Assembly: GCA_030148165.1 (NCBI GenBank)
Contig: JASBTZ010000013.1
Coordinates: forward strand, 1-64,000
Source: Bacteroidota bacterium
GTDB taxonomy: Bacteria; Bacteroidota; Bacteroidia; Flavobacteriales_D; Crocinitomicaceae
Direction: 5' to 3'
DNA length: 64,000 nucleotides
Within the stretch, counting starts at the first letter, position 1. The number at the start of each line of letters is the position of its first letter. Made by a program: the position numbers and the translations under genes. Of this stretch, positions 281 through 51,978 are shown piece after piece. The notes under the pieces were generated by a model. The model ran no database searches and was not told the DNA's origin. It worked only from the letters and a program-made list of their open reading frames with translations.

Positions 281-805
281 ATGAAAGAACCATTTAACCT
301 CCAACAATGGATCGATGAAAACAGAGATCTTTTAAAGCCCCCTGTTAGTAACAAGAATCTCTATGTAGAAGCCGGTGATTTTATCGTAATGATCGTTGGC
401 GGTCCTAATGCACGTAAAGACTATCATTTCAATGAGAGTGAAGAGCTGTTCTATCAAATAGAAGGTGATATCACCGTGCGCGTACAGTTGGATGGAAAAC
501 CTAAGGATATCATTATTAAAGAGGGTGACATATTCTTGCTGCCCTCCAATATACCTCATTCTCCTATACGTGGGGAAAATACGGTTGGTCTTGTGGTAGA
601 ACGAGTTAGAAAAGATACGGACCTAAGTGATGGATTGATGTGGTTCTGTGATGAATGCAATCACAAATTGCACGAGTTCCGTTTTCCATTAAACGATATT
701 GAGCATGATTTCCTTTCACGATTCCGTGAATTCTATGGTTCGGAAGATTTGAGGACTTGCGACAATTGCGGACACGTCATGGAGACTGATCCTCGTTTTG
801 TTTAA
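281..805 (+). CDS. nbaC: 3-hydroxyanthranilate 3,4-dioxygenase
   Basis: This cupin enzyme opens the ring of 3-hydroxyanthranilate with O2 in the kynurenine route from tryptophan to quinolinate and NAD, or to 2-aminomuconate. With the start at 281 the protein is 174 residues, the usual bacterial length. The iron ligands His49, Glu55 and His93 and the substrate-binding arginines Arg45 and Arg97 sit where the characterised Ralstonia enzyme has them, with a constant offset of two residues. The C-terminal rubredoxin-like second metal site is present (CDEC at 123-126, CDNC at 160-163). The ORF-track start at 206 adds 25 residues that overlap the terminator and promoter, so I rejected it. No other kynurenine genes are visible here. 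The stop shares a TTAA palindrome with the stop of the convergent neighbour. Confidence 0.95.
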   Translation: MKEPFNLQQWIDENRDLLKPPVSNKNLYVEAGDFIVMIVGGPNARKDYHFNESEELFYQIEGDITVRVQLDGKPKDIIIKEGDIFLLPSNIPHSPIRGENTVGLVVERVRKDTDLSDGLMWFCDECNHKLHEFRFPLNDIEHDFLSRFREFYGSEDLRTCDNCGHVMETDPRFV

Positions 806-20860: not shown

Positions 20861-22342
20861 TTGAAAGAAGTACGTGCATATCAGGTGTTGCTATTCATCG
20901 CGGGAATCCTGCTTATCCTCTCGCCTGCAGTCTATTTCATGCCAGATGATGGTGTAAAGATTGCTGGTATGCAGTTCAACTTTTTAACGCAAGAGAATTT
21001 TATTCATCCGAAGAAACAGGAAAAAGCTGACATAACCGACATTATTGCCGATATCGATACCAGTATGGTAATCGAGGATGACCCGTTAGTCAAGCATCAA
21101 AATGGATCCCATGGCGAGCTTGGCGCACCAAATGGAGGTAAACTGATCGATTCTGCAGCTACATCTCTTCAAATGAATGATGCCGGACTTAAAAACTTGT
21201 ATTCCTTCTTTGAAATCCTGAAGAAGGTATCCGCCAAAAAAGAAAAAATATCCATTCTTCATTACGGTGATTCTCAAATTGAAGGTGATCGTATGACTGG
21301 GTATATTCGCGAACGCATACAAAATCAGTTCGGTGGAAATGGTCCGGGATTAATTCCCGCAACAAACGTATACAGTACAGTGGCATTTGAGCAAAGCTAC
21401 TCAGAGAGCTTTGTTCGTTATACCGGTTTTGGCGGTAACGCTCTGCAGAGTAAAAAGTATGGGGCAATGATTTCCGTTGCCAGATTTACACCGGAATATG
21501 AACTCGATAGCACATTAAGCAATGCAGATACACTCGTTGAGCAGAGCGGATGGATCGAAATTGCACCTTCCAGATCGGCTTATAGACGGGCACGCACGTA
21601 CAACAATGTCGTGATGCATTACAACAGTTGTATTTTACCTACTAAGCTCCATGTCTATCAAAATGGGACGCTCATTCACGAAGAAGATTTAATGAATGAT
21701 GGAGAACAACACGTCTTTCGTTTATCCTTTCCTGATACACCCGGAAAGTTGAGATATGAGTTCAAGGGTAAAATGAGTCCGAATATTTGTGGATTCTCTC
21801 TGGAAGGTGATTACGGAGTACAGGTTTCTAACATCGCCATGCGGGGCTCGAGCGGAACCGTTTTTGGTCGTGTAGACCAAAACGTACTAAGGTCCATGTA
21901 TGAATCGCTTAACACTGAATTAGTTATCATGCAATTTGGAGGTAATTCCGTTCCTTTCTTTGAGGATAGTGCATCGGTGGAAAGCTTTGCTCGTTACTTT
22001 AAGAGTCAGATTAATCGAATAAAGAGACTCAACGATGGAGCAATGGTCATCGTAATAGGCCCTAGTGATATGTCTGTTCTTGAAGATCAGATATATGTTA
22101 CGTACAAGTTTCTTCCCTACTGTGTGGAACAGATGAAAAAAGCAACAAAAGACGCGGGTGCTGCATACTGGGATCTGTTTGCTGCTATGGGCGGTGAAAA
22201 TTCAATGCCTTCCTGGGTTGAAAAGGGTCTCGCGGGAAAAGATTATATACACTTCAGTAATGCAGGATCAAAAATAGCTTCACAGCTATTCTACGACGCC
22301 TTTTTAGCTGAATACAGTAAATGGGAGAAGAACAAACCTTAG
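20861..22342 (+). CDS. Membrane-anchored SGNH hydrolase-like protein of an O-acylation cassette
   Basis: 493 residues starting at a TTG. A single N-terminal transmembrane segment (about 8-27) anchors it. The SGNH core begins near 128 with the nucleophile block 'HYGDSQIEG' (Ser138), has a block III-like 'MQFGGNS' and the catalytic pair 'DYIH' (Asp461, His464). The insertion of about 180 residues between the first blocks looks beta-rich. It is followed, with a 1-base overlap, by a second SGNH protein and then by an MBOAT acyltransferase. By analogy with AlgJ/AlgX or PatB it probably transfers or removes acyl groups on an exported glycan. The substrate is unknown. Confidence 0.8.
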   Translation: MKEVRAYQVLLFIAGILLILSPAVYFMPDDGVKIAGMQFNFLTQENFIHPKKQEKADITDIIADIDTSMVIEDDPLVKHQNGSHGELGAPNGGKLIDSAATSLQMNDAGLKNLYSFFEILKKVSAKKEKISILHYGDSQIEGDRMTGYIRERIQNQFGGNGPGLIPATNVYSTVAFEQSYSESFVRYTGFGGNALQSKKYGAMISVARFTPEYELDSTLSNADTLVEQSGWIEIAPSRSAYRRARTYNNVVMHYNSCILPTKLHVYQNGTLIHEEDLMNDGEQHVFRLSFPDTPGKLRYEFKGKMSPNICGFSLEGDYGVQVSNIAMRGSSGTVFGRVDQNVLRSMYESLNTELVIMQFGGNSVPFFEDSASVESFARYFKSQINRIKRLNDGAMVIVIGPSDMSVLEDQIYVTYKFLPYCVEQMKKATKDAGAAYWDLFAAMGGENSMPSWVEKGLAGKDYIHFSNAGSKIASQLFYDAFLAEYSKWEKNKP

Positions 22343-23685
22343 TGAAGCTGATCATCAATATATGTGCATTATTTGTAGCCCAGATTAGTCTGGCTCAGGA
22401 CACAATTATGCCCATAATTGATTCCAGTGCTTTTGTGCTTCGGTGCGACTCATTATCTGCTTATCATTTTCCGGATTTCAGAAATATGGATACCAGTCTT
22501 AAAACGAGCCGTTCATTCGTTGATTACGGGAAAAACAATTACCGATTTTACACAAAAGAAAGCCCAAATTTCCATCAATTGTATGAATCGTTTACGCAGA
22601 TGGTAGACAAAAAAGAAGGGAAGCTAAACTTTTATCACATAGGTGGTTCTCACTTACAAGCTGACATTTACTCAAATGATGCCAGGGAGTTCTTACAGGA
22701 AAACTGGGAAGGAATTGGCGGAGAACGAGGCTGGGTATTTCCGTTCGATCTTGCCAAAACGAACAATCCCGGAAACTATGAATTCTCTTCACCAAATTCA
22801 TGGACACCTTATCGATGTTTACCTCATAAACCCGCGAAATACGATGTTGATTACGGAATCATGGGGGCTATGGTGACTTGCGACGACTCGATAATCACGG
22901 TTAAATTTGAATTTGACCGTACAACTAGTAAACCGCCTTTCAATCATATACGGGTATTTCATAACATTGGTGAGTTTCCTTACTGGATGCATTTCGGTGA
23001 GGCTGAGATTTTGGTCCTTGGAGTTGATCACAATCCTGAAGTAGGTTACACCGATATTTATTTTACGGACCCGCTCGATTCCTTCAATCTGCAGTTTCAG
23101 CGAACCACAAAGTCAGCACCTGAATTAGAGATCTATGGTTTCACTTTAATGAATGACCAGCCAGGCGTTTCGTATACATCAATAGGAATCAATGGTGCAG
23201 GGCTTTATACCTATCTCGATAATGTCCGATTCGAAGAACAATTAAAAACATATCCACCTGATTTCTTTGCGTATTCCGTTGGTACGAACGATGGAAATGT
23301 TCCGTACGCTGACTTCGATCCACAAGAATATAAAGCAAACCTGGAAAAGTTGATGCAGATTGCGCTTCGTGCTAATCCGGATTGCGCCTTGTTGCTGACA
23401 GTGCCAAACGACTCTTATTATCGACGTAGGTATTACAATCGTAATATCGCAAGGGAACGAAGCGTCATAATAGAACTCGCCGAAAAATATAAAATGGCTG
23501 TATGGGACATGTACGGTATCATGGGAGAACTAGGTTCAAGCAAAACCTGGAAATACAAAGGACTTATGCGTAGTGATCTTGTGCATTTTACACACGAAGG
23601 ATATCATTTCAAAGGAGAATTATACATTGATGCCTTTCTAAAATTTATGGATCAAATGAAGGCTTGTGAAGACACCATGCCATAA
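22342..23685 (+). CDS. Secreted SGNH hydrolase-like protein of an O-acylation cassette
   Basis: I start it at the GTG at 22342, whose G is the last base of the upstream TAG stop. This gives 447 residues with a clean signal peptide ending 'ISLAQ'. The ORF-track ATG at 22321 adds seven polar residues inside the upstream gene. The SGNH blocks are 'YHIGGSHLQ' (the usual Asp of GDS is Gly102; Ser103 kept), 'VGTNDGN' (block III Asn) and 'SDLVHF' (Asp412, His415). It is about as long as its upstream neighbour, with the same block order, and is probably an old paralogue. An O-acetyl transferase or esterase role on surface polysaccharide is inferred from the MBOAT neighbour, 2 bases downstream. Confidence 0.8.
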   Translation: MKLIINICALFVAQISLAQDTIMPIIDSSAFVLRCDSLSAYHFPDFRNMDTSLKTSRSFVDYGKNNYRFYTKESPNFHQLYESFTQMVDKKEGKLNFYHIGGSHLQADIYSNDAREFLQENWEGIGGERGWVFPFDLAKTNNPGNYEFSSPNSWTPYRCLPHKPAKYDVDYGIMGAMVTCDDSIITVKFEFDRTTSKPPFNHIRVFHNIGEFPYWMHFGEAEILVLGVDHNPEVGYTDIYFTDPLDSFNLQFQRTTKSAPELEIYGFTLMNDQPGVSYTSIGINGAGLYTYLDNVRFEEQLKTYPPDFFAYSVGTNDGNVPYADFDPQEYKANLEKLMQIALRANPDCALLLTVPNDSYYRRRYYNRNIARERSVIIELAEKYKMAVWDMYGIMGELGSSKTWKYKGLMRSDLVHFTHEGYHFKGELYIDAFLKFMDQMKACEDTMP

Positions 23686-23687
23686 CA

Positions 23688-25385
23688 ATGGAAGAAAGTA
23701 ATTACATATCAGAATACTTCAACAGGTTCATGAATATCTTTTCGACTGAAGTTGGAGATGGAAGTTCAATGGTATTCACTAAGCTTGATTTTTGGCTTTT
23801 CTTCTTACTGGTGATGGTCTTCTTTTCATTCTTTCACAAGAACAAATTGATCAGAAGTATTTATCTCACAGCTATTAGCTGCTTCTTCTTCTTTAAGACA
23901 TCCGGATTGTACGTGATACTGTTGGGCGTGAGTGTCACGGTTAACTTTTTCCTCGGTCAACGGATATATGAATCCAAGTCTGAATTACGGCGGAAATGGA
24001 TCATCGCATTCTCCGCCATTTTCAATATTCTCATTTTAGGATATTTCAAATACGCTTATTTCTTTACTGACTCATTCAACGAGATGTTCAATACGGATTT
24101 TGAACTCGTGAATCACTTTGCGCAGTTCGGAAACAGTTTCTTTGGAGAAGGAACATTTGTCGAGCGAATTCTATTGCCGGTAGGTGTCTCATTCTTCACT
24201 TTCCAGAACATCAGCTACGTAGTTGATATTTATCGAAAGGAGATAGAACCAGTTAAAAATTACTTCCATTATTCGTTCTTCGTTACCTTCTTCCCTCAGC
24301 TGGTAATGGGTCCGATTGTTCGTGCAAGAGACTTCATTCCGCAAATCAGTAAAGCTTACAGGCTTACGAAAGATGAGTTCAGCTGGGCGATCATCCAGAT
24401 CGTCACCGGCTTGTTAAAAAAGATTGTTATTGCGGATTATCTCGCTGTTCATTTCGTTGATAAAATCGCAGATGCACCTGATGGGTATCCCGGTTTTGTC
24501 AGTATCCTAGCTATGTGGGGCTACTCTCTTCATATCTACGCAGATTTCTCAGGGTACACCGATATTGCCATTGGTCTCTCGAAGCTTATGGGCTTTTCGT
24601 TAAAACCAAACTTCAATTCTCCTTACAAGGCTAGAAGTGTAGCTGAATTCTGGCGGCGATGGCATATGTCCCTTGGAGCCTGGCTGAAGGATTACCTGTA
24701 CATTCCATTAGGAGGAAATCGAACGGGAGGAACAGGATCATATATAGCCATCTTTGTCATATTTGTCTTTCTGATTTTCATAACACAATGGTATGAACTG
24801 ATCTATATCTACATAGGCCTAAGCTGTATATATCTCTTAGGTGTAATGCTGATCACCGATTTTAAGCGTTATGTTCATCGCGACCTCAATCTAATCATTA
24901 CAATGGTCGTCGGTGGCCTGTGGCACGGAGCCAGTGAGAATTTTGTGATCTGGGGAGCAATGAACGGTTGTGCGCTCGTTATCTACAAATACTGGAGGAA
25001 GATCAGTTTCTATGAAAACAGCAATGTCTGGATCGCAAATTTCTGGAAGATCTTCGTCACCTTTAATTTCATTACCTTCACACGAATTTGGTTTAAACTC
25101 GAAGACGACGGTCAACCATTGGTGATGCTTGATCAGATTTGGAATCATTTTGACTTTACCTGGGAATCTTTTGTAGTGGTCTTGCAAACCTATCAATCTG
25201 TCTTCTGGATTATGCTTGCAGGATTTATTGTGCACTGGTTGCCGGATAAAGTAAAAGCCTTATATGAAACTGCTTTCAAACGAATGCCAATGCCTGTTCA
25301 GGCAATTTCAGTAGCAATTATTGTCTTCCTCATGTACCAGGCTGTTTCCAGCGAAGCTCCACCATTTGTCTATCTCCAATTCTAA
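23688..25385 (+). CDS. MBOAT-family O-acyltransferase (AlgI/DltB-like)
   Basis: 565 residues with about ten to twelve membrane segments. Family motifs visible include 'LPVGVSFFTFQNISYVVDIYR', 'FFPQLVMGPIVRARDF', 'FWRRWHMSLGAWLKDYLYIPLGGNR' and the catalytic His413 in 'VVGGLWHGASENF'. Such proteins pass acyl (often acetyl) groups across the inner membrane to SGNH partners, which then modify alginate, peptidoglycan or another polysaccharide. It is the last gene of a three-gene cassette with two SGNH proteins. The only terminator after it is shared with the convergent giant gene. Confidence 0.93.
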   Translation: MEESNYISEYFNRFMNIFSTEVGDGSSMVFTKLDFWLFFLLVMVFFSFFHKNKLIRSIYLTAISCFFFFKTSGLYVILLGVSVTVNFFLGQRIYESKSELRRKWIIAFSAIFNILILGYFKYAYFFTDSFNEMFNTDFELVNHFAQFGNSFFGEGTFVERILLPVGVSFFTFQNISYVVDIYRKEIEPVKNYFHYSFFVTFFPQLVMGPIVRARDFIPQISKAYRLTKDEFSWAIIQIVTGLLKKIVIADYLAVHFVDKIADAPDGYPGFVSILAMWGYSLHIYADFSGYTDIAIGLSKLMGFSLKPNFNSPYKARSVAEFWRRWHMSLGAWLKDYLYIPLGGNRTGGTGSYIAIFVIFVFLIFITQWYELIYIYIGLSCIYLLGVMLITDFKRYVHRDLNLIITMVVGGLWHGASENFVIWGAMNGCALVIYKYWRKISFYENSNVWIANFWKIFVTFNFITFTRIWFKLEDDGQPLVMLDQIWNHFDFTWESFVVVLQTYQSVFWIMLAGFIVHWLPDKVKALYETAFKRMPMPVQAISVAIIVFLMYQAVSSEAPPFVYLQF

Positions 25386-25406: not shown

Positions 25407-25434
25407 AAAAAAAAGCCTCCGGACAGGAGGCTTT
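25407..25434 (-). terminator. Rho-independent terminator of giant gene A
   Basis: Stem AAAGCCTCC / GGAGGCTTT with a 5-base loop. On the reverse strand it runs into seven T residues. It lies just past the stop of the 1658-residue gene and may also act on the converging MBOAT transcript. Confidence 0.88.
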
Positions 25435-25457: not shown

Positions 25458-28400
25458 TTATTGTTTAGTTATTTTCTCAAACTTGATGATCTCATTCTGA
25501 TTATTCAGCACTTTTACGATGTAAATACCGGTGCTTACATTCGAGAAGTTATCAATCATGTACGTTTTCTTATCTGGTGATAATTCAATTTCTTCAACAA
25601 TCGTCTTACCGGAAATATCGGTGATTAAAATTGTATGAACCCCATCGTTCTCATCATTGAAGTCAATGAACAGATCTCCGGAAGTTGGATTCGGATAAAT
25701 CTGTATATCCGGACCAATATTTGTGTTGATCGCAATGACTTCTGAATAAGACGCCGATCCATTGAAATCAATCTGTTTTAGACGATAGTAGTTCATTCCT
25801 TTCAATGGTGCATTGTCCGTCAAGCGATAAGAATTTGTAACACTACTATTTCCTGCTGCATCAACCTGACCGATATCCTTGAAAGCATATCCATCTTCAC
25901 TTCGCTGAACCAGGAAGAAATCGTTATTGATCTCTGTAGCCGTAGTCCAATATAAATCATTCACATCGCCATTATTCTCTCCGGCAAAACTCATGAGTTC
26001 TATTGGCAATGGGTTACATATAATGATATTTACGGTATCGTAAACCGTACAAATACCCCCCGTTACCTCAACCACATACTGTTGATCAACCAATGGTGTA
26101 GCTGTTGGGTTGGCAATATTTGGATCATCCAAGCTAGTCGCAGGTGTCCAAGTATATGTCGGAGATACCGGTGGCGGGTCATAAATTCTAAGGCGAATAT
26201 TTGGTCGATACTGATATACATAAACCGGGTCAAGACTACAACCACTTGAACCAGGACCTCCTCCTGACAAGTTCTGATAGTTTCTCATGGTCGTACCAAA
26301 ACCGGGTGAATTATGATAATAATGATTCGCATAACTTATGGCTGAATTGTTATCGAAACATGTTTCGATAACAATATTCGATGTTCCATCCCAGTCGAAT
26401 GGTTGAGAGAGAATAAAGGTGTTCCAACCAACAGCCACATTATAATTCTGAGGCCCCCAAACCGGCCCAACTGTTGGAAGCCAACCATTGGCTGCTACCA
26501 ATGTGTTTTCGTTTGTACAACCAATGCTAATCTGGAAGTCATTGAAAGCACCAGTCGTAAAATTGGAGAGAATATTAAATGAAAGTTCCGTTATTGTTCC
26601 AGATTGGAATCCTGCAGCTTGTAAATCAGATGCATGGTATAAGAACTGGTACTTAACGTCAGAATAAGACCCATAGAATGGTCCGTATGTTGACGTTGCA
26701 GTAGTTCCCGTACCAACGAGATTCAAGGTGTTTGGTCCTGAATAACCAGCTGTATTCAAACCACAAGGAATCGTAGTTGGAACTGGTCCTGTAAACAGCG
26801 CGTTTAAGTTATACGAATCTCCCGGACAAATCATTGTGTCCGGAGCAGCAGTTACACTGTTAGAAGGATCTATCGCAACCTGAACCTGGGAAGTTGAAGG
26901 ACATCCCGGATTCGCCGGATCCGTAACAGTTAAGGTATACGTTGTTGTTCCTGTAACAGTAGCTGTTGGATTCTGTATACTCGGGTCGGAAAGTCCTGTT
27001 GAAGGCGACCACGAATAGGTGGCTCCACCACCCAAAGTTGCATTACACATTGTAAATCGCATATTAGGTCTAACAGTTGTTCGTGTACCAGTGGCGTTGT
27101 TACAAGCACTGCTTAATGTTGTATTGTAATACATACACCTGTAATACGGAGAGGTAGTCGAATAATAGGTGTTCTCTGATCCAATGTGGTCATCGTGATG
27201 TGCACAGAACTGAACCACAATATTCGATGATCCATCCCAATCGAAACCGGTAATATTGAAGGAATTCCAACCATTCGCGGTAGTGTAATATGGGTTATAA
27301 TACACCTGCGTTAAGGACGATACCGGAATAAACGAAGTAGTCGTATATTGCTCTTGAGTCGTACATCCCATCCAAATTGTTAAATCATCGTATGAACGAG
27401 CAGTTCCCGTTGACACATTTAGTTCCAACATAGTAATTGTACCGGCAGTGAATCCCATTGTGGTTAACTCATCAGCACTAAAAATATATTGCTTCTTATT
27501 ATAATACGTTGAAGCTGAAGTCGATCCATAAAATGGCCCATAAGACGAGGTAGCTGTTGTTGCGGTTCCACTAACACCTGTGCTAGAAGCACCCGTACAA
27601 TTTGCGTAATTAACTCCACAGTTTCCTGTTGCAGCAACCATGTCTAATTGAACTACATCCAACGGACAAACCGTATCAAGATTTGCTAAAGCCGCTATTG
27701 GAATTCCACCTACTTGTACAGTAACACTGTCCAATTTATTACAGAATCCATTTGAAGTTGAGATGTAATAGGTTGTTTCACCAGTAGGAGAAACTGTTGG
27801 ACTCGAAGCTGACGGATTTCCAAAAGCTCCCGCCGGTTCCCAGCTATAGGTATATGGTCCTGGGCCACTCGCTCCAGCGTTCAACGTAGTGGTTTGTCCA
27901 TAACACAAACTGATCGGACTAGCCGTTGGACTCAATGTATAATCCGGACTTACATTAATCTGTGCAATACCTGATCCTGTACATCCATTTGCCGTAACAT
28001 CCAATACGTAGGAAGTTGAAGACGTTGGTGACGCAGTAGGGTTTGCAATTGTCGTTGAACTCAACCCTGTACCAGGAGACCATGAATAAACTGGTGAACT
28101 GGCATCTTCAACACAGAGTGTCATTCTAATATTTGGTCTGTTAGTTACCCGCGTTCCCGTAGGTGTTGAACATCCCGTTGTAAGGGTCGTGTGATAGTAT
28201 AGACATCTGTACGCTGGAGAAGTTGAATGGTATAAGAACGAATCTGATCCTTCATCATTTGTGTTGTCCTCGTCTGCACATATCTGTATTACCAGATTCG
28301 ATATTCCATCCCAATCGTAATCAGCGATGTTAAATGCACACCATGTGTTGTTTGGTGGATTGTAGTTATCACCCGACCAAACTAATGTCATACTTGATGT

Positions 28401-30434
28401 CGGGATAAAAGAAGTCGTCAGATACTGATCCTGAGTGGTACATCCAATCCAGATATCTACATTGTCATACTGGTATATATACGACGTTGTTGATCGTAGC
28501 GCAAGCGTTTTGATCGTACCACCATAGTAACCCATCGCATTCAACTCTGCAGCTGTATATATGTACTGGGTCTTATTCGTATAATTACTCGTAGTTGACG
28601 TGGATCCATAGAATGGTGTGTAAGATGTTGTTCCTGTGCTGGATGTTCCGATATCAACAATATTATTCGTACCGGTACAGCCTGAACTTGGTCCGCAAAC
28701 CACCGGGTAAACATATGCCTCTGTTACGAATGGAACCGATTCACCTTCACAAATATCAATTGACGACGGTGTAATCGTAACCGTTGGCCCAACTCCTGAT
28801 ACTATGACATCTGCAGTAATCGTTTTTGTACATCCATCGATCGATGTTACAACTGCCGTGTAGGTTGTCGTCGTTAAAGGATTCGCCAATGGGTTTACAA
28901 TATTCGGATTATTCAATGTCGACTGAGGTGTCCAGGTAACCGTATACGGTCCCTGATTACCCGTAATATCGAGCTGTGCTATTTCATTTGCACAAATGCT
29001 CTGCGATGCTGGTGTTGCTAGTGGCGTAAAATCAGGTACAACAATGACTGTTACCGTATCTTCGTTTGGACAAGTACCAACGAGGTTACCTGTAACTATA
29101 TACTGTTGAGTTGATGGCGGATCTGCTATTGGGTTTGGACAATTCGTACAACTTAAACCAGTTGCAGGAGACCATGTATAAGATCCTGCACCATTGGCTT
29201 GTAGCTGAGTCGTCTGTGATCCACAAATAATAGGGTCCGGTCCTGCCCAGACACCCGTGGCAATCGAGAATTCGACAGCGAAACCGGAGGTTCCCATTAC
29301 CGGACAACCATCATCGGCCGCCACAAAGGTGACGACGGATCCTGTATATCCGGGTTGGGCTGTCCAACAGAAGGTTCCCGTTGCAGGGTTTGTTCCTGTT
29401 TGAACAAATGTTGCTCCCGGTAGTAAGGTTGTACCATCTGTAGTTATTGTGATGATATCCGCAGGATTGACCGCATCTTGAAAGACGACATCAAAACAAA
29501 TATCATCTCCCCAACAGACACCTACCTCCTGTGGCCCAAGTTGAGCTCCGGTTCCTGTAACATTTTGTATTCCTCCTACTGGATTGGATGGAGGTGTATT
29601 GTTACAGGCCATTACCTGTATCTTGAAATCATGAACGATGCTGGCAATCAGGTTTCCATTTGCATCAAATGATTCTATTAGAATATTTACTACATAATCA
29701 CCGGTTGTTGGCTCATTAAAACTGATACATCCTGTTAACGGATCCAATGTAAAGTTGCTTAGTGGTGAAGTAGTTGACCATGGCGCATTGAAAGCGATTG
29801 GTGTTCCCGCTGCTCCCATTGGGGGAATCATTGTGAAATAGGTACTATCTCCTTCCGGATCTGCTATCGTCAAACAATAGTTGAATGTTGTGTTCGCACA
29901 AGCATAAGGCATCGGAATTGATGTAACCTGAGGTGAACTGTTACATGGAGCTGTTTGGGTATTCATGACTGTCTCCACATACATATTGTTTCCAGTACCA
30001 CCTGTCATGTTGGTAGATGCGTCACGACAACATAAGTCAAAGGAAATTGTCCAGCTATCACAATCAGCAGGTAAAGTAATCGTCGCTTCATAGGTATACT
30101 TCCAAAGGCCCGGACTCGTACCACCGGAACAATCCGATGTTGCAGAAGCACATAACTGGTTCACATCTTCTGCCTGCCCAACCTGATTAAAGATTGGCAC
30201 AACCGGATTCACCAAACCGCAGTCATTCGTCAACGTAAAATAAGTTGATGACATAGTTGCCGGGTGTGTCCCGGGACAAACGCGATATAGCGTCAGTGTA
30301 AACGTATAGGTTAGTGGGTTATTCGGATCACAAGTATATGTGATATTTGCTCCTGGTATGTGGGTTGCAAATGCTTTGTTGCTATATCCAACCCCGATCA
30401 GTAGGAATAAAGCGAATAGTAGTAATTTTCTCAT
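25458..30434 (-). CDS. Giant modular T9SS-secreted surface protein A (tandem paralogue)
   Basis: 1658 residues. Signal peptide 1-23 (ending KAFA). A conserved N-terminal domain of about 250 residues with 'LYRVCPGTH' and 'DLCCRD' follows. Then come Ig/PKD-like modules ('TYSWSPATGLSDP', 'PDTMICPGDSYNL') that alternate with three copies of a 190-residue module at about 578-773, 938-1128 and 1223-1416. Each copy opens with a Cys/Gly stretch, contains 'QYIYTAAELNAMG' and 'WDGxSNxV', and closes with 'RPNIR'. An fn3-like segment (about 1480-1570) and a type A T9SS domain ('PNPTSGDLFIDF', 'YIVKVLNNQNE') end it. It is rich in Cys and Thr/Ser. It is a neighbour and duplicate of gene B; an adhesin or structural surface role is inferred. 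Confidence 0.88.
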   Translation of the reverse strand: MRKLLLFALFLLIGVGYSNKAFATHIPGANITYTCDPNNPLTYTFTLTLYRVCPGTHPATMSSTYFTLTNDCGLVNPVVPIFNQVGQAEDVNQLCASATSDCSGGTSPGLWKYTYEATITLPADCDSWTISFDLCCRDASTNMTGGTGNNMYVETVMNTQTAPCNSSPQVTSIPMPYACANTTFNYCLTIADPEGDSTYFTMIPPMGAAGTPIAFNAPWSTTSPLSNFTLDPLTGCISFNEPTTGDYVVNILIESFDANGNLIASIVHDFKIQVMACNNTPPSNPVGGIQNVTGTGAQLGPQEVGVCWGDDICFDVVFQDAVNPADIITITTDGTTLLPGATFVQTGTNPATGTFCWTAQPGYTGSVVTFVAADDGCPVMGTSGFAVEFSIATGVWAGPDPIICGSQTTQLQANGAGSYTWSPATGLSCTNCPNPIADPPSTQQYIVTGNLVGTCPNEDTVTVIVVPDFTPLATPASQSICANEIAQLDITGNQGPYTVTWTPQSTLNNPNIVNPLANPLTTTTYTAVVTSIDGCTKTITADVIVSGVGPTVTITPSSIDICEGESVPFVTEAYVYPVVCGPSSGCTGTNNIVDIGTSSTGTTSYTPFYGSTSTTSNYTNKTQYIYTAAELNAMGYYGGTIKTLALRSTTSYIYQYDNVDIWIGCTTQDQYLTTSFIPTSSMTLVWSGDNYNPPNNTWCAFNIADYDWDGISNLVIQICADEDNTNDEGSDSFLYHSTSPAYRCLYYHTTLTTGCSTPTGTRVTNRPNIRMTLCVEDASSPVYSWSPGTGLSSTTIANPTASPTSSTSYVLDVTANGCTGSGIAQINVSPDYTLSPTASPISLCYGQTTTLNAGASGPGPYTYSWEPAGAFGNPSASSPTVSPTGETTYYISTSNGFCNKLDSVTVQVGGIPIAALANLDTVCPLDVVQLDMVAATGNCGVNYANCTGASSTGVSGTATTATSSYGPFYGSTSASTYYNKKQYIFSADELTTMGFTAGTITMLELNVSTGTARSYDDLTIWMGCTTQEQYTTTSFIPVSSLTQVYYNPYYTTANGWNSFNITGFDWDGSSNIVVQFCAHHDDHIGSENTYYSTTSPYYRCMYYNTTLSSACNNATGTRTTVRPNMRFTMCNATLGGGATYSWSPSTGLSDPSIQNPTATVTGTTTYTLTVTDPANPGCPSTSQVQVAIDPSNSVTAAPDTMICPGDSYNLNALFTGPVPTTIPCGLNTAGYSGPNTLNLVGTGTTATSTYGPFYGSYSDVKYQFLYHASDLQAAGFQSGTITELSFNILSNFTTGAFNDFQISIGCTNENTLVAANGWLPTVGPVWGPQNYNVAVGWNTFILSQPFDWDGTSNIVIETCFDNNSAISYANHYYHNSPGFGTTMRNYQNLSGGGPGSSGCSLDPVYVYQYRPNIRLRIYDPPPVSPTYTWTPATSLDDPNIANPTATPLVDQQYVVEVTGGICTVYDTVNIIICNPLPIELMSFAGENNGDVNDLYWTTATEINNDFFLVQRSEDGYAFKDIGQVDAAGNSSVTNSYRLTDNAPLKGMNYYRLKQIDFNGSASYSEVIAINTNIGPDIQIYPNPTSGDLFIDFNDENDGVHTILITDISGKTIVEEIELSPDKKTYMIDNFSNVSTGIYIVKVLNNQNEIIKFEKITKQ

Positions 30435-30581
30435 GGTTATAGTTTTCCTAATAGGAGTACGCTATTATTTGTAATTCGTTGCTTTTCAGTTTAGTAATGC
30501 ACGATAAAAATAACCAATCATCACGTTTTATTAGTTTGATGTTGGTTTCTTAACGCATCCGTCGGTGGCGTGTTAAATGAA

Positions 30582-30611
30582 AATTGCCCCCTGAAAATTC
30601 AGGAGGCAATT
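30582..30611 (-). terminator. Probable terminator of giant gene B
   Basis: A near-perfect 13-bp hairpin (AATTGCCCCCTGA / TCAGGAGGCAATT, one mismatch) lies 26 bases past the stop of gene B. The T tract on the reverse strand is short, so it may terminate poorly and allow some read-through to gene A. Confidence 0.65.
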
Positions 30612-30637
30612 AGATGTATTGAAAACTATACTATAAA

Positions 30638-33600
30638 CTATTGTTTTGTAATCTTTTCTAGCTTAACTACTTCGTTTTGTCCATTCACGACTTTCACAAT
30701 ATATACCCCCGAACTTAACTCAGAGAAGTTTCCGATGATATATGTTTTCTTATCTGAAGAAATATCCATCTCCTCGGCGATTGTTTTGCCTGAGATATCT
30801 GTAATCAGAACCGTATGTGTTCCACTTTCTGCGTCCTCGCTAAAATCTAAGAACAAGTCGCCAGAAGTAGGGTTCGGATAGATCTGAATATCTTTCAGAC
30901 TATTTGTATTAAGCGCAATTACTTCTGAATAAGACGCCGTTCCGTTAAAGTCTATCTGCTTCAGACGATAGTAGTTAATTCCATCCAATGGATCTGTGTC
31001 CGTTAATCTGTAATCTTGCTGCGATGTACTGTTTCCAGCCGCATCAACCTGACCAATTTCTTCGAAAGCATATCCGTTATCACTTCGCTGAACGAGGAAA
31101 TAATCATTGTTAATCTCCGTTGCAGTTGACCAATAAAGGTCATTGACCATGCCATTATTCTCTCCATTGAAGCTCATTAACTCCATCGGTAAAGGATTAC
31201 AGATGATTATATTAACCGTGTCATAGACCGTACATAGTCCTCCCGTAACCTCAACAACATACTGCTCGTCAACCAGCGGAGTTGCTGTAGGGTTTGCTAC
31301 GTTTGGATCACTCAATGAAGTTGCCGGAGTCCAAGTATACTGCAGTGTCGCCGGTGGTGGCGGATCACATACTCTGAATCGAGTTAATGGACGGTTTACA
31401 CTATTAGTTCCACCAGCAGTGTATGGACACGCAGCCGTAACATCACTGTAGTAATATCTTGATGAATTAAAGGTTGTTGTTGTCCATGGAGACGTACAGT
31501 TATTTGTATAAGAAAATGCCAGATTATCGTAACAGATTTCAACTACCAGATTTGAAACTCCATCCCAGTTATATGGTGTATCAAATACAATCTGATTCCA
31601 TCCAATAGTAACCGTATGTGTATATGGATTCTTCACCTGAGTTAATCCTGATTCCCATCCAGTCAATGAAGTGGTATTGGTACACTTCATGGAAACCCGA
31701 TAACTATAATAAGTCGAGGTACCATTTATACTTTGGACGTTAAATGCTATTGCATTCATCTTTCCGCCCTGTATACCCATAGCATTTAATTCAGCCGCTG
31801 TGTATAAGAACTGATGTTTTGCATTTCGGTACCAGTTTCCAAACGGTGCCGGCCATGTAGTTGTACCATTCTGTCCCGTCTGAGACCCAATAATGTATAA
31901 GTTATTAGGTCCTGAACAAGCTCCTGCTACTCCACATGGAACAGAAATAGGATTGATCGGTCCACTAAACACGGCATTCAGGTCATATGAATCTCCAGGA
32001 CAAATCATGGTGTCTGGTGCTGCATTCACTGCATTCGAAGGATCGATTGCTACCTGAATCTGAGATGTTGATGGGCATCCCGGGTTTGCCGGGTCAACTA
32101 CCGTCAAAGTATAGGTAGTCGTACCTCCAACCGTTGCCGTTGGATTCGGCATACTAGGGTCTGAAAGTCCTGTTGAAGGTGACCATGAATAAGTCGTTCC
32201 CGCTCCTAAACTAGAACTACACATTGTAAAGCGCATGTTTGGTCTATTGGTCACTCGTGAACCAGTCGCATTGCTACAAGCGCTACTTAAAGTTGTGTTG
32301 TAATACATACATCTGTAGGCAGGAGTCGTTGTCGTGTATCTACAGCTTTCTGCTCCAATATGATCGTCGTGGTGAGCACAGAACTGAACCACAATATTAG
32401 ACGCCCCATCCCAGTCAAAACCTGTAATAGCAAAAGTGTTCCAGCCAGTAGCTGTCGTGTAATAAGAATTATAATAAACCTGTGTTAATCCTGAAACCGG
32501 TATAAACGAAGTTGTTGTATACTGATCTTGTGTCGTACAACCCATCCAGATCGTTACATCATCGTAAGATCTACCTGTACCGGTCGACACATCTAATGCA
32601 AGCTCTGTAATCATTCCTGCCGTTAATCCCATCGCTGATAATTCAGCCGCTGTAAATATGTACTGTTTCTTATTATAATATGTCGATGCCGAGGTTGATC
32701 CGTAGAATGGTCCGTACGTAGTAGTTGCAGCAGTATTCGTACCACTAACACCTTGAAGAGGGCTACCTGTACAATTGGCATAATTAACACCGCAGTTTCC
32801 TGTCGCAGTTAGCATATCGAGCTGTACAACATCCAATGGACATACGGTGTCCTGATCTGCTATTGCTGAAATAGGTACGCCACCAACATTTACGGTAATA
32901 CTGTCTAATTTATTACAGAACCCGTTTGAAGTGGATATATAATACGTTGTTGGACCTGTTGGTGTTACTGTTGGGTTTGCCGTTGTAGGGCTACCGAATG
33001 CGCCTGCCGGTTCCCAACTATAGGTATATGGACCTGGACCACTAGCACCTGCCGATAAATCCGTTGACTGTCCATAACAAATGCTTATTGGACTAGCTGC
33101 AGGATTCAAGGTATAGTTAGGGCTAACGTTAATTTGAGTAATTCCGGATCCTGTACATCCATTCGCTGTTACATCAAGAACATATGATGTTGAAGTCGTT
33201 GGTGTTGCAGTTGGATTCGAAATATTTGGGTTAGATAAATCTGTCGACGGAGTCCAGGCGTAAGTAGCACCACCGGCATCTTCCACACAAAGAGTCATTC
33301 TAATATTTGGTCTGTTAGTTACCCGTGTTCCCGTTGGTGTTGAACATCCCGTTGTAAGGGTCGTGTGATAGTATAGACATCTGTACGCTGGAGAAGTTGA
33401 ATGGTATAAGAAGGACTCGGATCCGGACAAGCCATTGTTATCTTCATCAGCACAAATCTGAATCACAATATTGGAAATTCCATCCCAATCGTAATCCGTA
33501 ATATTAAAGGCACACCAGGTATTATTTGGTGGGTTATAATTGTTTCCGGACCAAACCAATGTCATACTTGACGTTGGGATAAAAGACGTTGTCAGATATT

Positions 33601-35605
33601 GATCTTGCGAGGTACAACCTATCCAAATATCCACATTGTCATACACATACGTGTAAGAAGTAGTTGAACGAAGCGCAAGGGTTTTGATCGTACCTCCATA
33701 GTAACCCATCGCATTCAACTCTGCTGCCGTATAGATATACTGAGTCTTATTGGTATAATTCGTTGTATTAACTGTTGAACCATAAAAAGGTGTATAGGAT
33801 GTTGTCGCAGTACTTGAAGTTCCTACATCAACAATATTATTTGTCCCTGTACAACCAGAACTAGGTCCGCAAACTACTGGATAAACATATGCCTCTGTTA
33901 CTAATGGAACCGATTCACCCTCGCAAATATCAATTGACGATGGTGTAATCGTAACCGTTGGTCCAACACCTGAAACGATAACGTCCGAGGTGATTGTTTT
34001 TGTACAACCATCCACCGATGTAACCACCGCGGTATAGGTAGTTGTACTCAATGGGTTTGCTAATGGGTTAACTATATTCGGATTGTTTAGTGTCGCCTGT
34101 GGCGTCCAGGTAACTGTATATGGTCCCTGGTTACCCGTAATGTCCAATTGTGCTATTTCGTTTGCACAGATTGTCTGAGATGCTGGAGTTGGTACCGGTG
34201 TAAAATCAGGTACCACAATGACTGTTACCGTATCTTCATTAGGACAAGTACCAACAAGGTTACCTGTCACTATATACTGTTGGGTTGATGGCGGATCTGC
34301 AATGGGGTTGGCACAGTTTGTACAACTTAGCCCTGTTGCAGGAGTCCAAGTATACGATGCCGCTCCGTTTGCTTGCAACTGCGTCGTCTGTGATCCACAA
34401 ATAATAGGGTCCGGTCCTGCCCAGACACCCGTAGCAATCGAGAACTCGACGGCGAAACCGGAGGTTCCCATTACCGGACAACCATCATCGGCCGCCACGA
34501 AGGTGACGACGGATCCTGTATATCCCGGTTGAGCTGTCCAACAGAAGGTTCCCGTTGCGGGGTTTGTTCCTGTTTGAACAAATGTTGCTCCCGGAAGTAA
34601 GGTCGTACCATCCTGAGTAATGGTAATTACATCAGTAGGGTTGGCGGCATCTTGAAAGACGACATCAAAGCAAATATTATCTCCCCAACAGACCCCGACT
34701 TCGGTCGGCCCTAGTTGCGTTCCTGTACCGTTCACGTTGGATATACCACCGACGGGATTGGAAGGTGGAGTATTGCTACAGGACATTACCTGTATCTTGA
34801 AATCATGAACGATGCTGGCAATCAAGTTTCCATTTGCGTCAAATGATTCTATCAGAATATTCACTACATAATCTCCAACCGTAGATTCATTGAACGATAT
34901 ACATCCAGTTAAGGGGTCTAACGTAAAGTTACTTAATGGTGAAGTAGTTGACCATGGTGCGTTAAAAGCAATTGGTGTTCCCGCTGCTCCCATTGGGGGA
35001 ATCATTGTGAAATAGGTACTATCTCCTTCCGGATCTGCTATCGTCAAACAATAGTTGAATGTCGTGTTAACACAGGCATAAGGCATCGGAATTGAAGTAA
35101 CCTGCGGCGAATTATTACACGGTGCAGTCTGTGTGTTCATCACCGTTTCAACATACATATTGTTACTTGTACCACCTGACATATTCGTCGACTGGTCACG
35201 ACAACATAAGTCGAATGAAATTGTCCAGCTGTCACAATCAGCAGGTAAGGTAATTGTTGCTTCATAGGTATACTTCCATAGACCCGGACTCGTACCACCG
35301 GAACAATCCGATGTTGCCGAAGCACATAATTGGTTCACATCTTCAGCCTGACCAACCTGGTTAAAGATCGGTACAACCGGATTCGCCAAACCGCAATCAT
35401 TCGTCAACGTAAAATACGTCGATGACATAGTTGCTGGGTGTGTACCGGGACAAACTCGATAAAGTGTCAGGGTGAATGTATACGTGAGCGGGTTGTTTGG
35501 ATCACAAGTATAAGTGATGTTCGCTCCAGGAATGTGAGTTGCAAAAGCTTTGTTAAAGCCTGCCCCGATAAATAACAACAGGGCTAATAGTAGTAGTTTT
35601 CTCAT
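30638..35605 (-). CDS. Giant modular T9SS-secreted surface protein B (tandem paralogue)
   Basis: 1655 residues with the same domain order as protein A: signal peptide (ending KAFA), N-terminal 'LCCRD' domain, alternating Ig/PKD-like modules and three 190-residue modules, an fn3-like segment and a type A T9SS domain. Modules 1 and 2 and the first 500 residues are almost the same as in A. The third large module (about 1220-1410) is a different subtype, with 'GSQTGQNGTTTWPAPFGNWY' in place of A's 'GTGTTATSTYGPFYGS'. It lies directly upstream of gene A, with its own leader and terminator, so the two can be expressed separately. The likely origin is a tandem duplication followed by module exchange. 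Confidence 0.88.
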   Translation of the reverse strand: MRKLLLLALLLFIGAGFNKAFATHIPGANITYTCDPNNPLTYTFTLTLYRVCPGTHPATMSSTYFTLTNDCGLANPVVPIFNQVGQAEDVNQLCASATSDCSGGTSPGLWKYTYEATITLPADCDSWTISFDLCCRDQSTNMSGGTSNNMYVETVMNTQTAPCNNSPQVTSIPMPYACVNTTFNYCLTIADPEGDSTYFTMIPPMGAAGTPIAFNAPWSTTSPLSNFTLDPLTGCISFNESTVGDYVVNILIESFDANGNLIASIVHDFKIQVMSCSNTPPSNPVGGISNVNGTGTQLGPTEVGVCWGDNICFDVVFQDAANPTDVITITQDGTTLLPGATFVQTGTNPATGTFCWTAQPGYTGSVVTFVAADDGCPVMGTSGFAVEFSIATGVWAGPDPIICGSQTTQLQANGAASYTWTPATGLSCTNCANPIADPPSTQQYIVTGNLVGTCPNEDTVTVIVVPDFTPVPTPASQTICANEIAQLDITGNQGPYTVTWTPQATLNNPNIVNPLANPLSTTTYTAVVTSVDGCTKTITSDVIVSGVGPTVTITPSSIDICEGESVPLVTEAYVYPVVCGPSSGCTGTNNIVDVGTSSTATTSYTPFYGSTVNTTNYTNKTQYIYTAAELNAMGYYGGTIKTLALRSTTSYTYVYDNVDIWIGCTSQDQYLTTSFIPTSSMTLVWSGNNYNPPNNTWCAFNITDYDWDGISNIVIQICADEDNNGLSGSESFLYHSTSPAYRCLYYHTTLTTGCSTPTGTRVTNRPNIRMTLCVEDAGGATYAWTPSTDLSNPNISNPTATPTTSTSYVLDVTANGCTGSGITQINVSPNYTLNPAASPISICYGQSTDLSAGASGPGPYTYSWEPAGAFGSPTTANPTVTPTGPTTYYISTSNGFCNKLDSITVNVGGVPISAIADQDTVCPLDVVQLDMLTATGNCGVNYANCTGSPLQGVSGTNTAATTTYGPFYGSTSASTYYNKKQYIFTAAELSAMGLTAGMITELALDVSTGTGRSYDDVTIWMGCTTQDQYTTTSFIPVSGLTQVYYNSYYTTATGWNTFAITGFDWDGASNIVVQFCAHHDDHIGAESCRYTTTTPAYRCMYYNTTLSSACSNATGSRVTNRPNMRFTMCSSSLGAGTTYSWSPSTGLSDPSMPNPTATVGGTTTYTLTVVDPANPGCPSTSQIQVAIDPSNAVNAAPDTMICPGDSYDLNAVFSGPINPISVPCGVAGACSGPNNLYIIGSQTGQNGTTTWPAPFGNWYRNAKHQFLYTAAELNAMGIQGGKMNAIAFNVQSINGTSTYYSYRVSMKCTNTTSLTGWESGLTQVKNPYTHTVTIGWNQIVFDTPYNWDGVSNLVVEICYDNLAFSYTNNCTSPWTTTTFNSSRYYYSDVTAACPYTAGGTNSVNRPLTRFRVCDPPPPATLQYTWTPATSLSDPNVANPTATPLVDEQYVVEVTGGLCTVYDTVNIIICNPLPMELMSFNGENNGMVNDLYWSTATEINNDYFLVQRSDNGYAFEEIGQVDAAGNSTSQQDYRLTDTDPLDGINYYRLKQIDFNGTASYSEVIALNTNSLKDIQIYPNPTSGDLFLDFSEDAESGTHTVLITDISGKTIAEEMDISSDKKTYIIGNFSELSSGVYIVKVVNGQNEVVKLEKITKQ

Positions 35606-48852: not shown

Positions 48853-51708
48853 TTATTTGATTATCGAGAGCTTTTTGACTTCTCTGCGATCTCCTTGAGT
48901 AAACACTACCTGATAAAGACCTGATGATAGATCTCTTACTTCAAGTGTTGACTGCATTCCTTCATAAACATCAGTAAATGTTTTAGAACTTACTGTCTGT
49001 CCAATATCATTAACCAATGCCACCGTTAATGGTATATTTTCATTCTCACCCAGGTAAGTGAAATTCACATATGAATTCGTTGGGTTAGGGAAAGGGTTTG
49101 AAACCATATCGCCTTCCAATACTTTATTTCCTGAAACCGAAATTACATCGAAGAATTCTCTTGTACCATCGAAATCAGTTTGTGAAAGTCTGTAATACGT
49201 CAGTGGGAAGAATGGATTTGGATCTCTCAATTCATAATATCTTGCCTGAGATGTCGTACCAGAACCATCGACATAGTCAACTACTTCCCAGTTAATTCCG
49301 TCTACACTTCTTTCAACTGTAAAGTAATCATTATTGATCTCCGAATTCGTAGACCAGAATAGCTTATTGGTGCTTCCCTGGTTAATTCCATTAAATGAGC
49401 TCAACTCAACCGGAGCGAATACCGGTGTACAATCCAATGTACCTGTACCACCAATTACCATATCGATAACCGGCTGTGGACCTCCATTCTGGTAGATATT
49501 TACAACCATGGCGTATGTTTCACCAGCTTGTACCTGAAGAGGTATAATCCAACCGTCTCCTTCTTCGCCTTCATAACTTCCGCCGTCTCCAATTGTAGTA
49601 CTCTGACCAGTCACACCATTCATAAAATAGTTACTTACGTCAGCCTGGGTACACAAGACCGGACTATCTCCCGTATTTTGTGGACAAGGCGGCACATCAT
49701 TCGTAGATGGGCCGTAGATCGCAAAGTTATAATCCTGCCCTCCAGGACCGTTGAAGCTAAATTCAACTGAACCATTGGTCAATGCCGTAAAGTAGAACCA
49801 TTGCGATGCAACCTCTCCTACTTCATCGAAACAACCACCTGTTCCAATTGACATGTCTTCATTTACGTTACCAATGTTTTCTGTTGGATAGAGACCAGAA
49901 GCACAAATCCATGTTCCGCACTCTCCAGGACAATCCGTACCCGTACAGATGGAATCATTCACACCCGGTGTAGCAGAACAAGATACTGTTGCTTGCCATC
50001 CAGTGGCAGTAACAGCATTATCTGAAGCAAAAATAAATGTCAAACAACCATCTGGTGTAGAAGATGTTATAATTAAGGGGTTAACACTTCCTGAATACTG
50101 TCCAATTATATAAGAACTATCGTAATTCCCGTCTAATACTGTCAAGAAATCTCCCATCGTTGCTGATCCTGAACCAGCAGGTTCTGTGTTGAAGAAGTTT
50201 GCACCCGTCGAGAAATCAACAGTTACATACTGACCAGGTGTTGATGGACAAATAATATAGGTAGATGTTGTATTGTTCTGATAGTTACCACCAGCTCCTC
50301 CCGGATCATACCAGGTCTGTGTAGACGGACAGTTTATTGTTGTCGATCCAGGTAGAATATCTCCTACAACAGTACCAACCTGCATTGCACAAAGATTATA
50401 TTGTCCTTCGAGGCCGTTCTGTTCCCATACTCTTACATAAATTGTTTCACCTGGCGTACCAGAATAAGTTAACTCAGCTATATCGGCAGGTGATGACGCT
50501 GCATCACACCCTGCATGCTGGATATCCAAACAATTAGCCCCTTCAGAATATATGGCGAGTGCCATTTCCATACCATTACCAGCGGCTTGTGTTGCATTTA
50601 TAGTAACAGTCCCCGATGCAGGAACAGTCACTTCATACCACGCATCATTACCTTGGTAATTACCACAGCCTGGTTCTACCATACCGGTAGAATTAGTAGC
50701 GTCAATATTTGAATACGTGGTATAAGTACAAGATCCAATGTTCACAGTAAGTGGCACATCAACTCCTCCACAAGGTTCGTCATTACACAAGAGAGGATAA
50801 CAAATTGTCACCGTATCACCTAGTGTTTGACATCCAGCTTGAGTAAACACCCATGCTATTGTGGCACATGTTCCAGGTGTTGCTATAGAAAGAGTTGCAT
50901 TAGGGTCATTCACATTAGAAATGGTTGGAGAACCCGAAATTATTACCCATGTTCCTGTCCATGCCGGATCCGGTGTGTTAGCCTGCAATGTTGTTACGTT
51001 ACAAGTAACCGGATATGGTCCTCCTGCATTTGGGTATGGATAAGGAGGTGTAAATTCAACGATTACTGCACCGTCTGCACCAACACCACCTGATGGGTTA
51101 ACACCACCACTTTTTGGTCCTGATCCGCCGCCGCCGCCGCCATAGGGTCCACCAGGACCACCATTTACACCAGCTCCACCACCGGAGCCACCGCCGCCAC
51201 CGAATGGACCGCCGGTATTACCGCCGCCGCCGCCGAAATTAGAATTTCCGTTTCCGCCAGTACCACCAGGAATAGGTCCAGCCCATCCGGAACCAGTACC
51301 TCCGCCTCCACCAAGGCCTCCAAAGTTGTCTCCTAATCCTCCAAGGCCTCCACTGGCCCACATAACTCCACCATTCCAATTCGACTGGCTTCCGTTACCA
51401 CCGTTAAATCCACAGCAGCCCGCAGCTCCTCCTGATCCAACCTCATATGGGAATACTTGTCCAGGTGTAACAGGGAAAGTCCAGGATACATATCCTCCAC
51501 CGCCTCCGCCGCCACCGGCAAGACCATTATCATTGGAACCACCTCCACCACCGCCGCCTCCATAGAGGTGAACAGTAATGAAAGTAACATCACAGGGAAC
51601 CGTGAACGTTCCCGGTCCAGGTGTGTTATCGATGTAGTACTGCTGAGCACTCCCGGTGGAGTAGAACAGTAGCGCAATCGAAACGCAAAGTGTAGTTAAA
51701 AATTTCAT
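48853..51708 (-). CDS. Glycine-rich T9SS-secreted surface protein
   Basis: The real start is the ATG at 51708 (signal peptide MKFLTTL..., ending GSAQ), which gives 951 residues. The ORF-track start at 51840 adds 44 residues of leader. A glycine-rich domain (about 23-235, runs of up to eight Gly) opens with 'TFTVPCDVTFITVHLYG' and closes with 'GADGAVIVEFTPP'. This is the pattern of bacterial Gly_rich domains, thought to form packed polyglycine II helices. Several beta-sandwich modules follow, with CUB-like ('TMGDFLTVLDGN') and lectin-like features. A fn3-like segment ('VELSSFNGINQG') and a type A T9SS domain ('NPFPNPTNSYVNF') end it. An adhesin role is inferred. Confidence 0.87.
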   Translation of the reverse strand: MKFLTTLCVSIALLFYSTGSAQQYYIDNTPGPGTFTVPCDVTFITVHLYGGGGGGGGSNDNGLAGGGGGGGGYVSWTFPVTPGQVFPYEVGSGGAAGCCGFNGGNGSQSNWNGGVMWASGGLGGLGDNFGGLGGGGGTGSGWAGPIPGGTGGNGNSNFGGGGGNTGGPFGGGGGSGGGAGVNGGPGGPYGGGGGGSGPKSGGVNPSGGVGADGAVIVEFTPPYPYPNAGGPYPVTCNVTTLQANTPDPAWTGTWVIISGSPTISNVNDPNATLSIATPGTCATIAWVFTQAGCQTLGDTVTICYPLLCNDEPCGGVDVPLTVNIGSCTYTTYSNIDATNSTGMVEPGCGNYQGNDAWYEVTVPASGTVTINATQAAGNGMEMALAIYSEGANCLDIQHAGCDAASSPADIAELTYSGTPGETIYVRVWEQNGLEGQYNLCAMQVGTVVGDILPGSTTINCPSTQTWYDPGGAGGNYQNNTTSTYIICPSTPGQYVTVDFSTGANFFNTEPAGSGSATMGDFLTVLDGNYDSSYIIGQYSGSVNPLIITSSTPDGCLTFIFASDNAVTATGWQATVSCSATPGVNDSICTGTDCPGECGTWICASGLYPTENIGNVNEDMSIGTGGCFDEVGEVASQWFYFTALTNGSVEFSFNGPGGQDYNFAIYGPSTNDVPPCPQNTGDSPVLCTQADVSNYFMNGVTGQSTTIGDGGSYEGEEGDGWIIPLQVQAGETYAMVVNIYQNGGPQPVIDMVIGGTGTLDCTPVFAPVELSSFNGINQGSTNKLFWSTNSEINNDYFTVERSVDGINWEVVDYVDGSGTTSQARYYELRDPNPFFPLTYYRLSQTDFDGTREFFDVISVSGNKVLEGDMVSNPFPNPTNSYVNFTYLGENENIPLTVALVNDIGQTVSSKTFTDVYEGMQSTLEVRDLSSGLYQVVFTQGDRREVKKLSIIK

Positions 51709-51718
51709 AGCAATATAG

Positions 51719-51730
51719 TTGTGTGTGTGT
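51719..51730. repeat. Short (TG)n dinucleotide tract in the 5' leader of the glycine-rich gene
   Basis: Five and a half TG units (AC on the coding strand) lie 11 bases before the ATG at 51708. The tract is short, so slippage would be infrequent. Confidence 0.5.
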
Positions 51731-51978
51731 ATTTCTGTTGTTGTCGGATTTATAATGTACGCATAATATTTGAAAGTGTTACATGTTTTTTTCAAATATT
51801 CTGACGTAACGATACAACCCGTTACATTAAATAAACTCATTTTGATTTAAAAAGGTTACGTTAAATGAATAACCCTCCGTAGATATTGAACTAAACAGGT
51901 TTAGGGTTTAACATTTCGTTAAACACCGCTATTTGCTAGACGAACATAAATATTGCGCCTATTAATAAGGAATTAGGC

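Follow-up and report, generated by a model that had tools for sequence, protein, structure and literature searches.

The tandem genes and their neighbours

The window analyzed here is a stretch of 64,000 nucleotides of contig JASBTZ010000013.1 from a bacterium of the Crocinitomicaceae (Bacteroidota), whose assembly comprises 3.5 Mb in 18 contigs. On its minus strand lie, head to tail, two open reading frames of 4968 bp (gene B, 30638 to 35605) and 4977 bp (gene A, 25458 to 30434), exactly where the original prediction, made from the DNA letters, had placed them. In the direction of transcription gene B comes first; it encodes a giant T9SS surface protein of 1655 amino acids, recognized as an open reading frame and by its tail in Pfam and NCBIfam. 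Gene A, the downstream copy, follows after a gap of 203 bases and encodes a giant T9SS surface protein of 1658 amino acids that in a full-length alignment is identical to B in 1330 of 1647 residues (81%). Both proteins indeed have the same order of domains, from the signal peptide through to the T9SS tail.

The gap between B and A contains, 3′ of B, a terminator-like hairpin of 13 pairs with a T-rich tail (30582 to 30611, minus strand), and a second one of 9 pairs with a T-run is found 3′ of A (25412 to 25434, minus strand). Both were found by consensus match; the terminator scan as a whole gave results near chance, the hairpin after B having the longest stem in the scan. Promoter scans gave signals at or below the chance level.

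Upstream of the pair is a gene for a PaaZ-like aldehyde dehydrogenase/MaoC protein. Downstream lies a convergent GDSL-GDSL-MBOAT set (20861 to 25385, plus strand), which ends 72 bases from gene A and apparently serves the O-acetylation of a surface polymer. The window encodes further large surface proteins on the minus strand: a 1295-residue T9SS type B protein with DUF7948, PKD and Ig_7 domains (802 to 4689) and a 995-residue type A T9SS protein with a glycine-rich and a CUB domain (48853 to 51840), the codon bias of which toward that of ribosomal proteins (1.10) is the highest among the window genes tested.

Predicted export by the type IX secretion system

Both proteins end in a type A T9SS sorting domain, in B at residues 1575–1648 (30662 to 30883, minus strand; PF18962, E = 1.2e-11) and in A at residues 1579–1651 (25482 to 25700, minus strand; PF18962, E = 6.7e-11). 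The scores of A and B, respectively, are above the curated cut-offs of both families: 36.7 and 34.7 bits for TIGR04183 (cut-off 23) and 42.8 and 45.1 bits for PF18962 (cut-off 27). The signal peptide, MRKLLLFALFLLIGVGYSNKAFA with cleavage before TH, was read by eye; in the model residues 2–15 form a helix. The same genome encodes SprA (2430 bits), GldK (557 bits) and the PorU sortase (1247 bits), again with scores above the curated cut-offs. A and B would be exported by Sec and then by the T9SS through its SprA pore, PorU would trim the type A tail, and the proteins would be held on the cell surface, to which they are probably anchored.

Modules nested in an Ig-like stalk

The first 400 residues (34405 to 35605 in B, signal peptide included, and 29234 to 30434 in A, where they are 94% identical to those of B; minus strand) are predicted by AlphaFold to form a chain of Ig-like/cadherin-like beta-sandwiches (pLDDT 85), and Foldseek aligns this model with multi-Ig and cadherin chains.

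A W-x-P strand marks six Ig-like repeats in each protein, which follow the N-terminal chain and are located in A at residues 421, 501, 785, 865, 1142 and 1429. The Cys of the first strand and the Trp are 17–21 residues apart in the three module-free repeats of each protein and 219–226 residues apart in the other three, because a module of about 200 residues is inserted between them. The modules are therefore nested in Ig hosts and are not beads on a string. The insertion point is one and the same loop of the host, the one that follows the first Cys strand and precedes the Y-x-W-x-P strand.

In B the core of module 1 (residues 575–776, 33278 to 33883) splits an Ig-like domain of residues 559–828 (33122 to 33931), that of module 2 (residues 934–1132, 32210 to 32806) one of residues 920–1188 (32042 to 32848) and that of module 3 (residues 1220–1416, 31358 to 31948) one of residues 1200–1469 (31199 to 32008). 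The corresponding positions in A are residues 576–777 (28104 to 28709) within 560–829 (27948 to 28757) for module 1, residues 935–1133 (27036 to 27632) within 921–1189 (26868 to 27674) for module 2 and residues 1220–1421 (26172 to 26777) within 1201–1473 (26016 to 26834) for module 3, all on the minus strand. The predicted number of three copies per protein was correct; the copies, each of about 200 residues, match the module profile with E-values of 4e-69 to 1e-95, the profile having been built from these six copies themselves plus those of a relative in the congeneric genome G003. Their description as rich in Cys and Gly is loose: the modules contain 2–4% Cys and 7–11% Gly, and Thr, Ser, Tyr and Asn dominate.

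The nested arrangement extends beyond the pair. The flanks could be read for 48 module copies, 39 of which come from outside the window pair and G003. The upstream Cys is present in 46, the strict downstream Ig strand pattern in 35 and both in 33, and most of the remaining copies have, by eye, the same layout with other spacing. Exceptions are short proteins with an N-terminal module (loci L076, L077, L078 and L090) and a protein with a PNGase F C-terminal domain (L085), in which the module is near a LamG domain.

Age of the duplication

The two genes had been thought to result from a recent duplication, the first 500 residues of the proteins being nearly identical. The near-identity is real (about 94% over the first ~575 residues), and it is the age that has to be revised. 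Over the first ~575 residues only 57–61% of the four-fold degenerate sites match between A and B, a figure that drops to 48% for module 1 and to 31–36% for the next three segments (residues 778–1219), where about 32% is expected for unrelated sequences; an exception is the segment before the tail (residues 1476–1570) with 64%, counted over only 28 sites. A change point in four-fold identity is located at residue 806 (0 of 1000 shuffles gave an equally strong one), beyond which the identity is 35%, mostly near the chance level of 32%. For the N-terminal part dS is about 0.76, becoming saturated farther on, and dN/dS over the first 560 codons is about 0.05, indicating strong purifying selection. 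From these values it follows that the duplication is old and that the N-terminal half has been strongly conserved. Perhaps this half was homogenized later than the rest by gene conversion. An assembly duplicate as the source of the pair is excluded because the two genes differ at 40–65% of their four-fold sites.

That the proteins are diversifying, as had also been proposed, holds for one module slot, the third; elsewhere strong purifying selection prevails.

Module lineages and the third slot

A tree of 58 module copies unites modules 1 and 2 of A, B and the G003 protein with the module of a Vicingaceae relative in one clade (support 100/100), which suggests that modules 1 and 2 arose by duplication within the protein before the A/B pair came into being. 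The third modules belong to a separate lineage. A's copy groups with the third module of the G003 protein (99/96), and B's copy is placed among single-module proteins of other genomes and species, with which it shares up to 60–62% identity.

Between A and B the third modules are only about 35–37% identical and the flanking halves of the Ig host about 85%, so that identity drops sharply at the module borders. Either B acquired its third module by exchange or this module evolved very fast in the A/G003 lineage. Exchange was favoured by 27 log units; since the AU test did not reject a tree with the third modules of A and B as sisters (p = 0.116), exchange is the favoured reading of these sequences and not a proven one.

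Sequence relatives of the module

The original prediction could not assign the module to a named domain, and we could not either: it is covered by no Pfam, NCBIfam or PDB sequence family. A Pfam scan of 57 module members yielded only PKD in at most four members and one DUF5412 at E = 0.003, an NCBIfam scan of the same members yielded no match, and a PDB sequence-profile search with the module gave no credible one. Two significant PDB profile matches were rejected: with IcmE no single stretch passes and the match looks like a repeat artefact, and Hoc aligns with the Ig part rather than with the module. Among 50,697 phage records there was no sequence relative of the module, and a phage origin of the module is in this respect without a match. 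The best 10 of 24 plasmid records contained only partial matches of the tail and Ig type. In a broad literature search, which is weak evidence, no description of the module was found; the nested module thus looks undescribed so far.

The module is not peculiar to the A/B system. It is present in 140 of 199 genomes and in 50 of 62 genera sampled of the order, and in a phylum-wide sample a profile of Ig host plus module matched 40 of 297 genomes, several of them via the Ig part alone. A module restricted to one lineage was therefore ruled out: it is frequent in the order and spread in Bacteroidota.

The PNGase F C-terminal domain protein mentioned above (L085, 4113 to 7529) carries the same module beside its LamG domain. 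Open reading frames of similar length (about 1140–1170 amino acids) with one N-terminal module occur in many genomes and families of the order; the own genome contains one of them (G000:C14:1106550-1106948, 1161 amino acids). In genomes of group f3 a 757-residue PKD/GEVED protein has an N-terminal module, and its gene is located, divergently, a few kb from that for a single-module protein of about 1380 amino acids (L076, 1091 to 11589; L077, 505 to 11004).

Predicted fold of the module

An AlphaFold model of the Ig host plus module, calculated with the 57-sequence alignment, is almost all-beta (pLDDT 88, pTM 0.82), and the module is accordingly predicted to be a beta-sandwich. The best Foldseek matches of this model in the PDB include the central fibre of mycobacteriophage Douge (8zdp, E = 3e-4), polyvinyl-alcohol esterase (9kr1), the Bxb1 tail tip (9d93) and the lectin-like domain of Cwp84 (4d59; probability 1.00 over 204 columns, TM 0.35/0.25, rmsd 7.1, the Ig host being included in the query); lower in the list are lectins and one carbohydrate-binding module but also the PHR domain of MYCBP2. 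The TM-scores are low, 0.29–0.37 of the query for the first five matches. Viral models were matched best by a protein of an uncultured Caudovirales phage (E = 1e-9, TM 0.54, 16% identity). Measured against known domains, the module thus has no close solved relative (best PDB TM about 0.37), and its fold class can nevertheless be recognized.

The Douge central fibre (gp20) and related phage tail proteins give the best PDB E-value, and domains of this fibre bind glycans of mycobacteria (PMC13033339); gp20 shares, however, only 9% identity with the module and has a low TM-score. The Cwp84 domain is a beta-sandwich of similar size, named lectin-like because its DALI matches were mostly carbohydrate binders, its own binding not having been demonstrated (PMC4089489); it is 8% identical to the module, is not nested in an Ig domain and is attached to a protease. 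The grappling-hook protein GhpA of Aureispira (9flx, 9fly), like A and B a giant surface protein of Bacteroidota, matched weakly (E about 0.1, probabilities 0.12 and 0.08), indicating no more than a shared content of beta-sandwiches. From the matches to phage fibre and tail proteins, the esterase and Cwp84, our best guess is that the module is a glycan- or polymer-binding head. It counts against this reading that Ig-like and jelly-roll folds also match many proteins that do not bind glycans.

Proposed function

We propose, with a probability of roughly 60%, that A and B are old, divergent, paralogous adhesins whose nested modules are multivalent heads binding glycans or other polymers. In each protein Ig-like beta-sandwiches would make up a rod, with three beta-sandwich modules of about 200 residues projecting from it as side heads, and the three heads would give each molecule a three-fold avidity. 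Because the third heads are unlike, the two genes would provide two related but different binding specificities; that A and B differ in specificity we infer from this divergence. Of the two roles originally considered, surface layer or adhesin, the latter is plausible for tandemly encoded T9SS cargo, and nothing tips the balance toward the former.

It is nevertheless worth asking whether A and B could be the two subunits of an S-layer, packed in a lattice like TfsA and TfsB of Tannerella forsythia, which are likewise large, tandemly encoded T9SS surface proteins. The two genes, tfsA and tfsB, putatively constitute an operon and are equally expressed (PMC3354324), and the layer is lost in T9SS mutants (PMC4175972). 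Compared with the published descriptions of TfsA/TfsB, A and B are close paralogues, acidic (pI 4.05 and 4.10) rather than basic (pI 7.8 and 9.9; PMC3354324), and a separate terminator-like hairpin follows each gene, that of B lying between the two. Their codon bias toward ribosomal proteins is only 1.07–1.08 times the window background, below that of the CUB domain-containing T9SS protein of the window (1.10) and of most ribosomal genes (1.02–1.35, all taken from one region of the genome). A search of 33 congeners yielded a relative of more than 40% identity in G003 alone, which would be odd for an S-layer. The modest codon bias, the separate hairpins, the acidity and the rarity of close relatives in the genus together make an S-layer unlikely.

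Equally to be weighed are adhesins of the SprB/RemA type, which in Flavobacterium johnsoniae are large T9SS cargo on the surface and would be moved along the cell by the gliding machinery. GldK and SprA are encoded in the genome, RemA has a lectin domain (PMC11205867), and L087, a relative that shares the N-terminus and has a single module, contains SprB-like repeats and ends in a type B (CHU_C) tail. The tails of A and B, however, are of type A, and such cargo is delivered to PorV/PorU rather than to PorP/SprF-like anchors (PMC11205867); moreover, a Pfam scan of A and B detected neither SprB repeats (PF13573) nor a Pfam lectin domain, the lectin-like module, unnamed and inserted in Ig domains, being a different one. 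A role in gliding therefore appears improbable.

That A and B are polysaccharide-scavenging proteins, which hold polymers for neighbouring enzymes instead of attaching cells, is suggested by the module in the PNGase F C-terminal domain protein and by the fold match to a polymer-binding esterase (9kr1), but is quite improbable, since among the neighbours examined there are the GDSL/MBOAT set and the PaaZ-like enzyme and neither a SusC/SusD pair nor a glycoside hydrolase.

For the adhesins that we propose, the class is already known; new are the nested, unnamed and widespread module and the divergent third slot. More tentatively, the module might be a lectin-like cassette used across Bacteroidota, placed in a fixed Ig loop, where the exchange of a whole module would change the specificity and leave the stalk otherwise unaltered; we regard this extension as possible but doubtful. 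Bacteroidota export very many T9SS proteins, the ligands of which are mostly unknown. For annotators, a recurrent head of about 200 residues that is absent from the family libraries and occupies one fixed position in an Ig stalk is a new domain awaiting a name; for biochemists it is a well-defined unit for expression and screening. If the slot truly takes exchanged modules, it would provide a simple route to new adhesin specificity.

Tandem members of the family in other genomes

The N-terminal family of A and B is found in 28 of 297 genomes of the phylum. Three members lie in a row in Chitinophagaceae bacterium LGM1 (L036) and two in another Bacteroidetes genome (L035), and in three further genomes (G247, G378 and G478) members are adjacent on the same strand; the tandem pairing is thus a habit of the family and not a unique event. 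The own genome contains three more members, distant from the pair. The genes of the two nearest relatives (58% and 60% identity), in G003 and JARGOE01, are both truncated by contig ends.

The tandem proteins of LGM1 (L036, 8032 to 14705) are seemingly identical over the C-terminal ~270 residues and differ in their N-terminal parts, a pattern that is the reverse of that of A and B.
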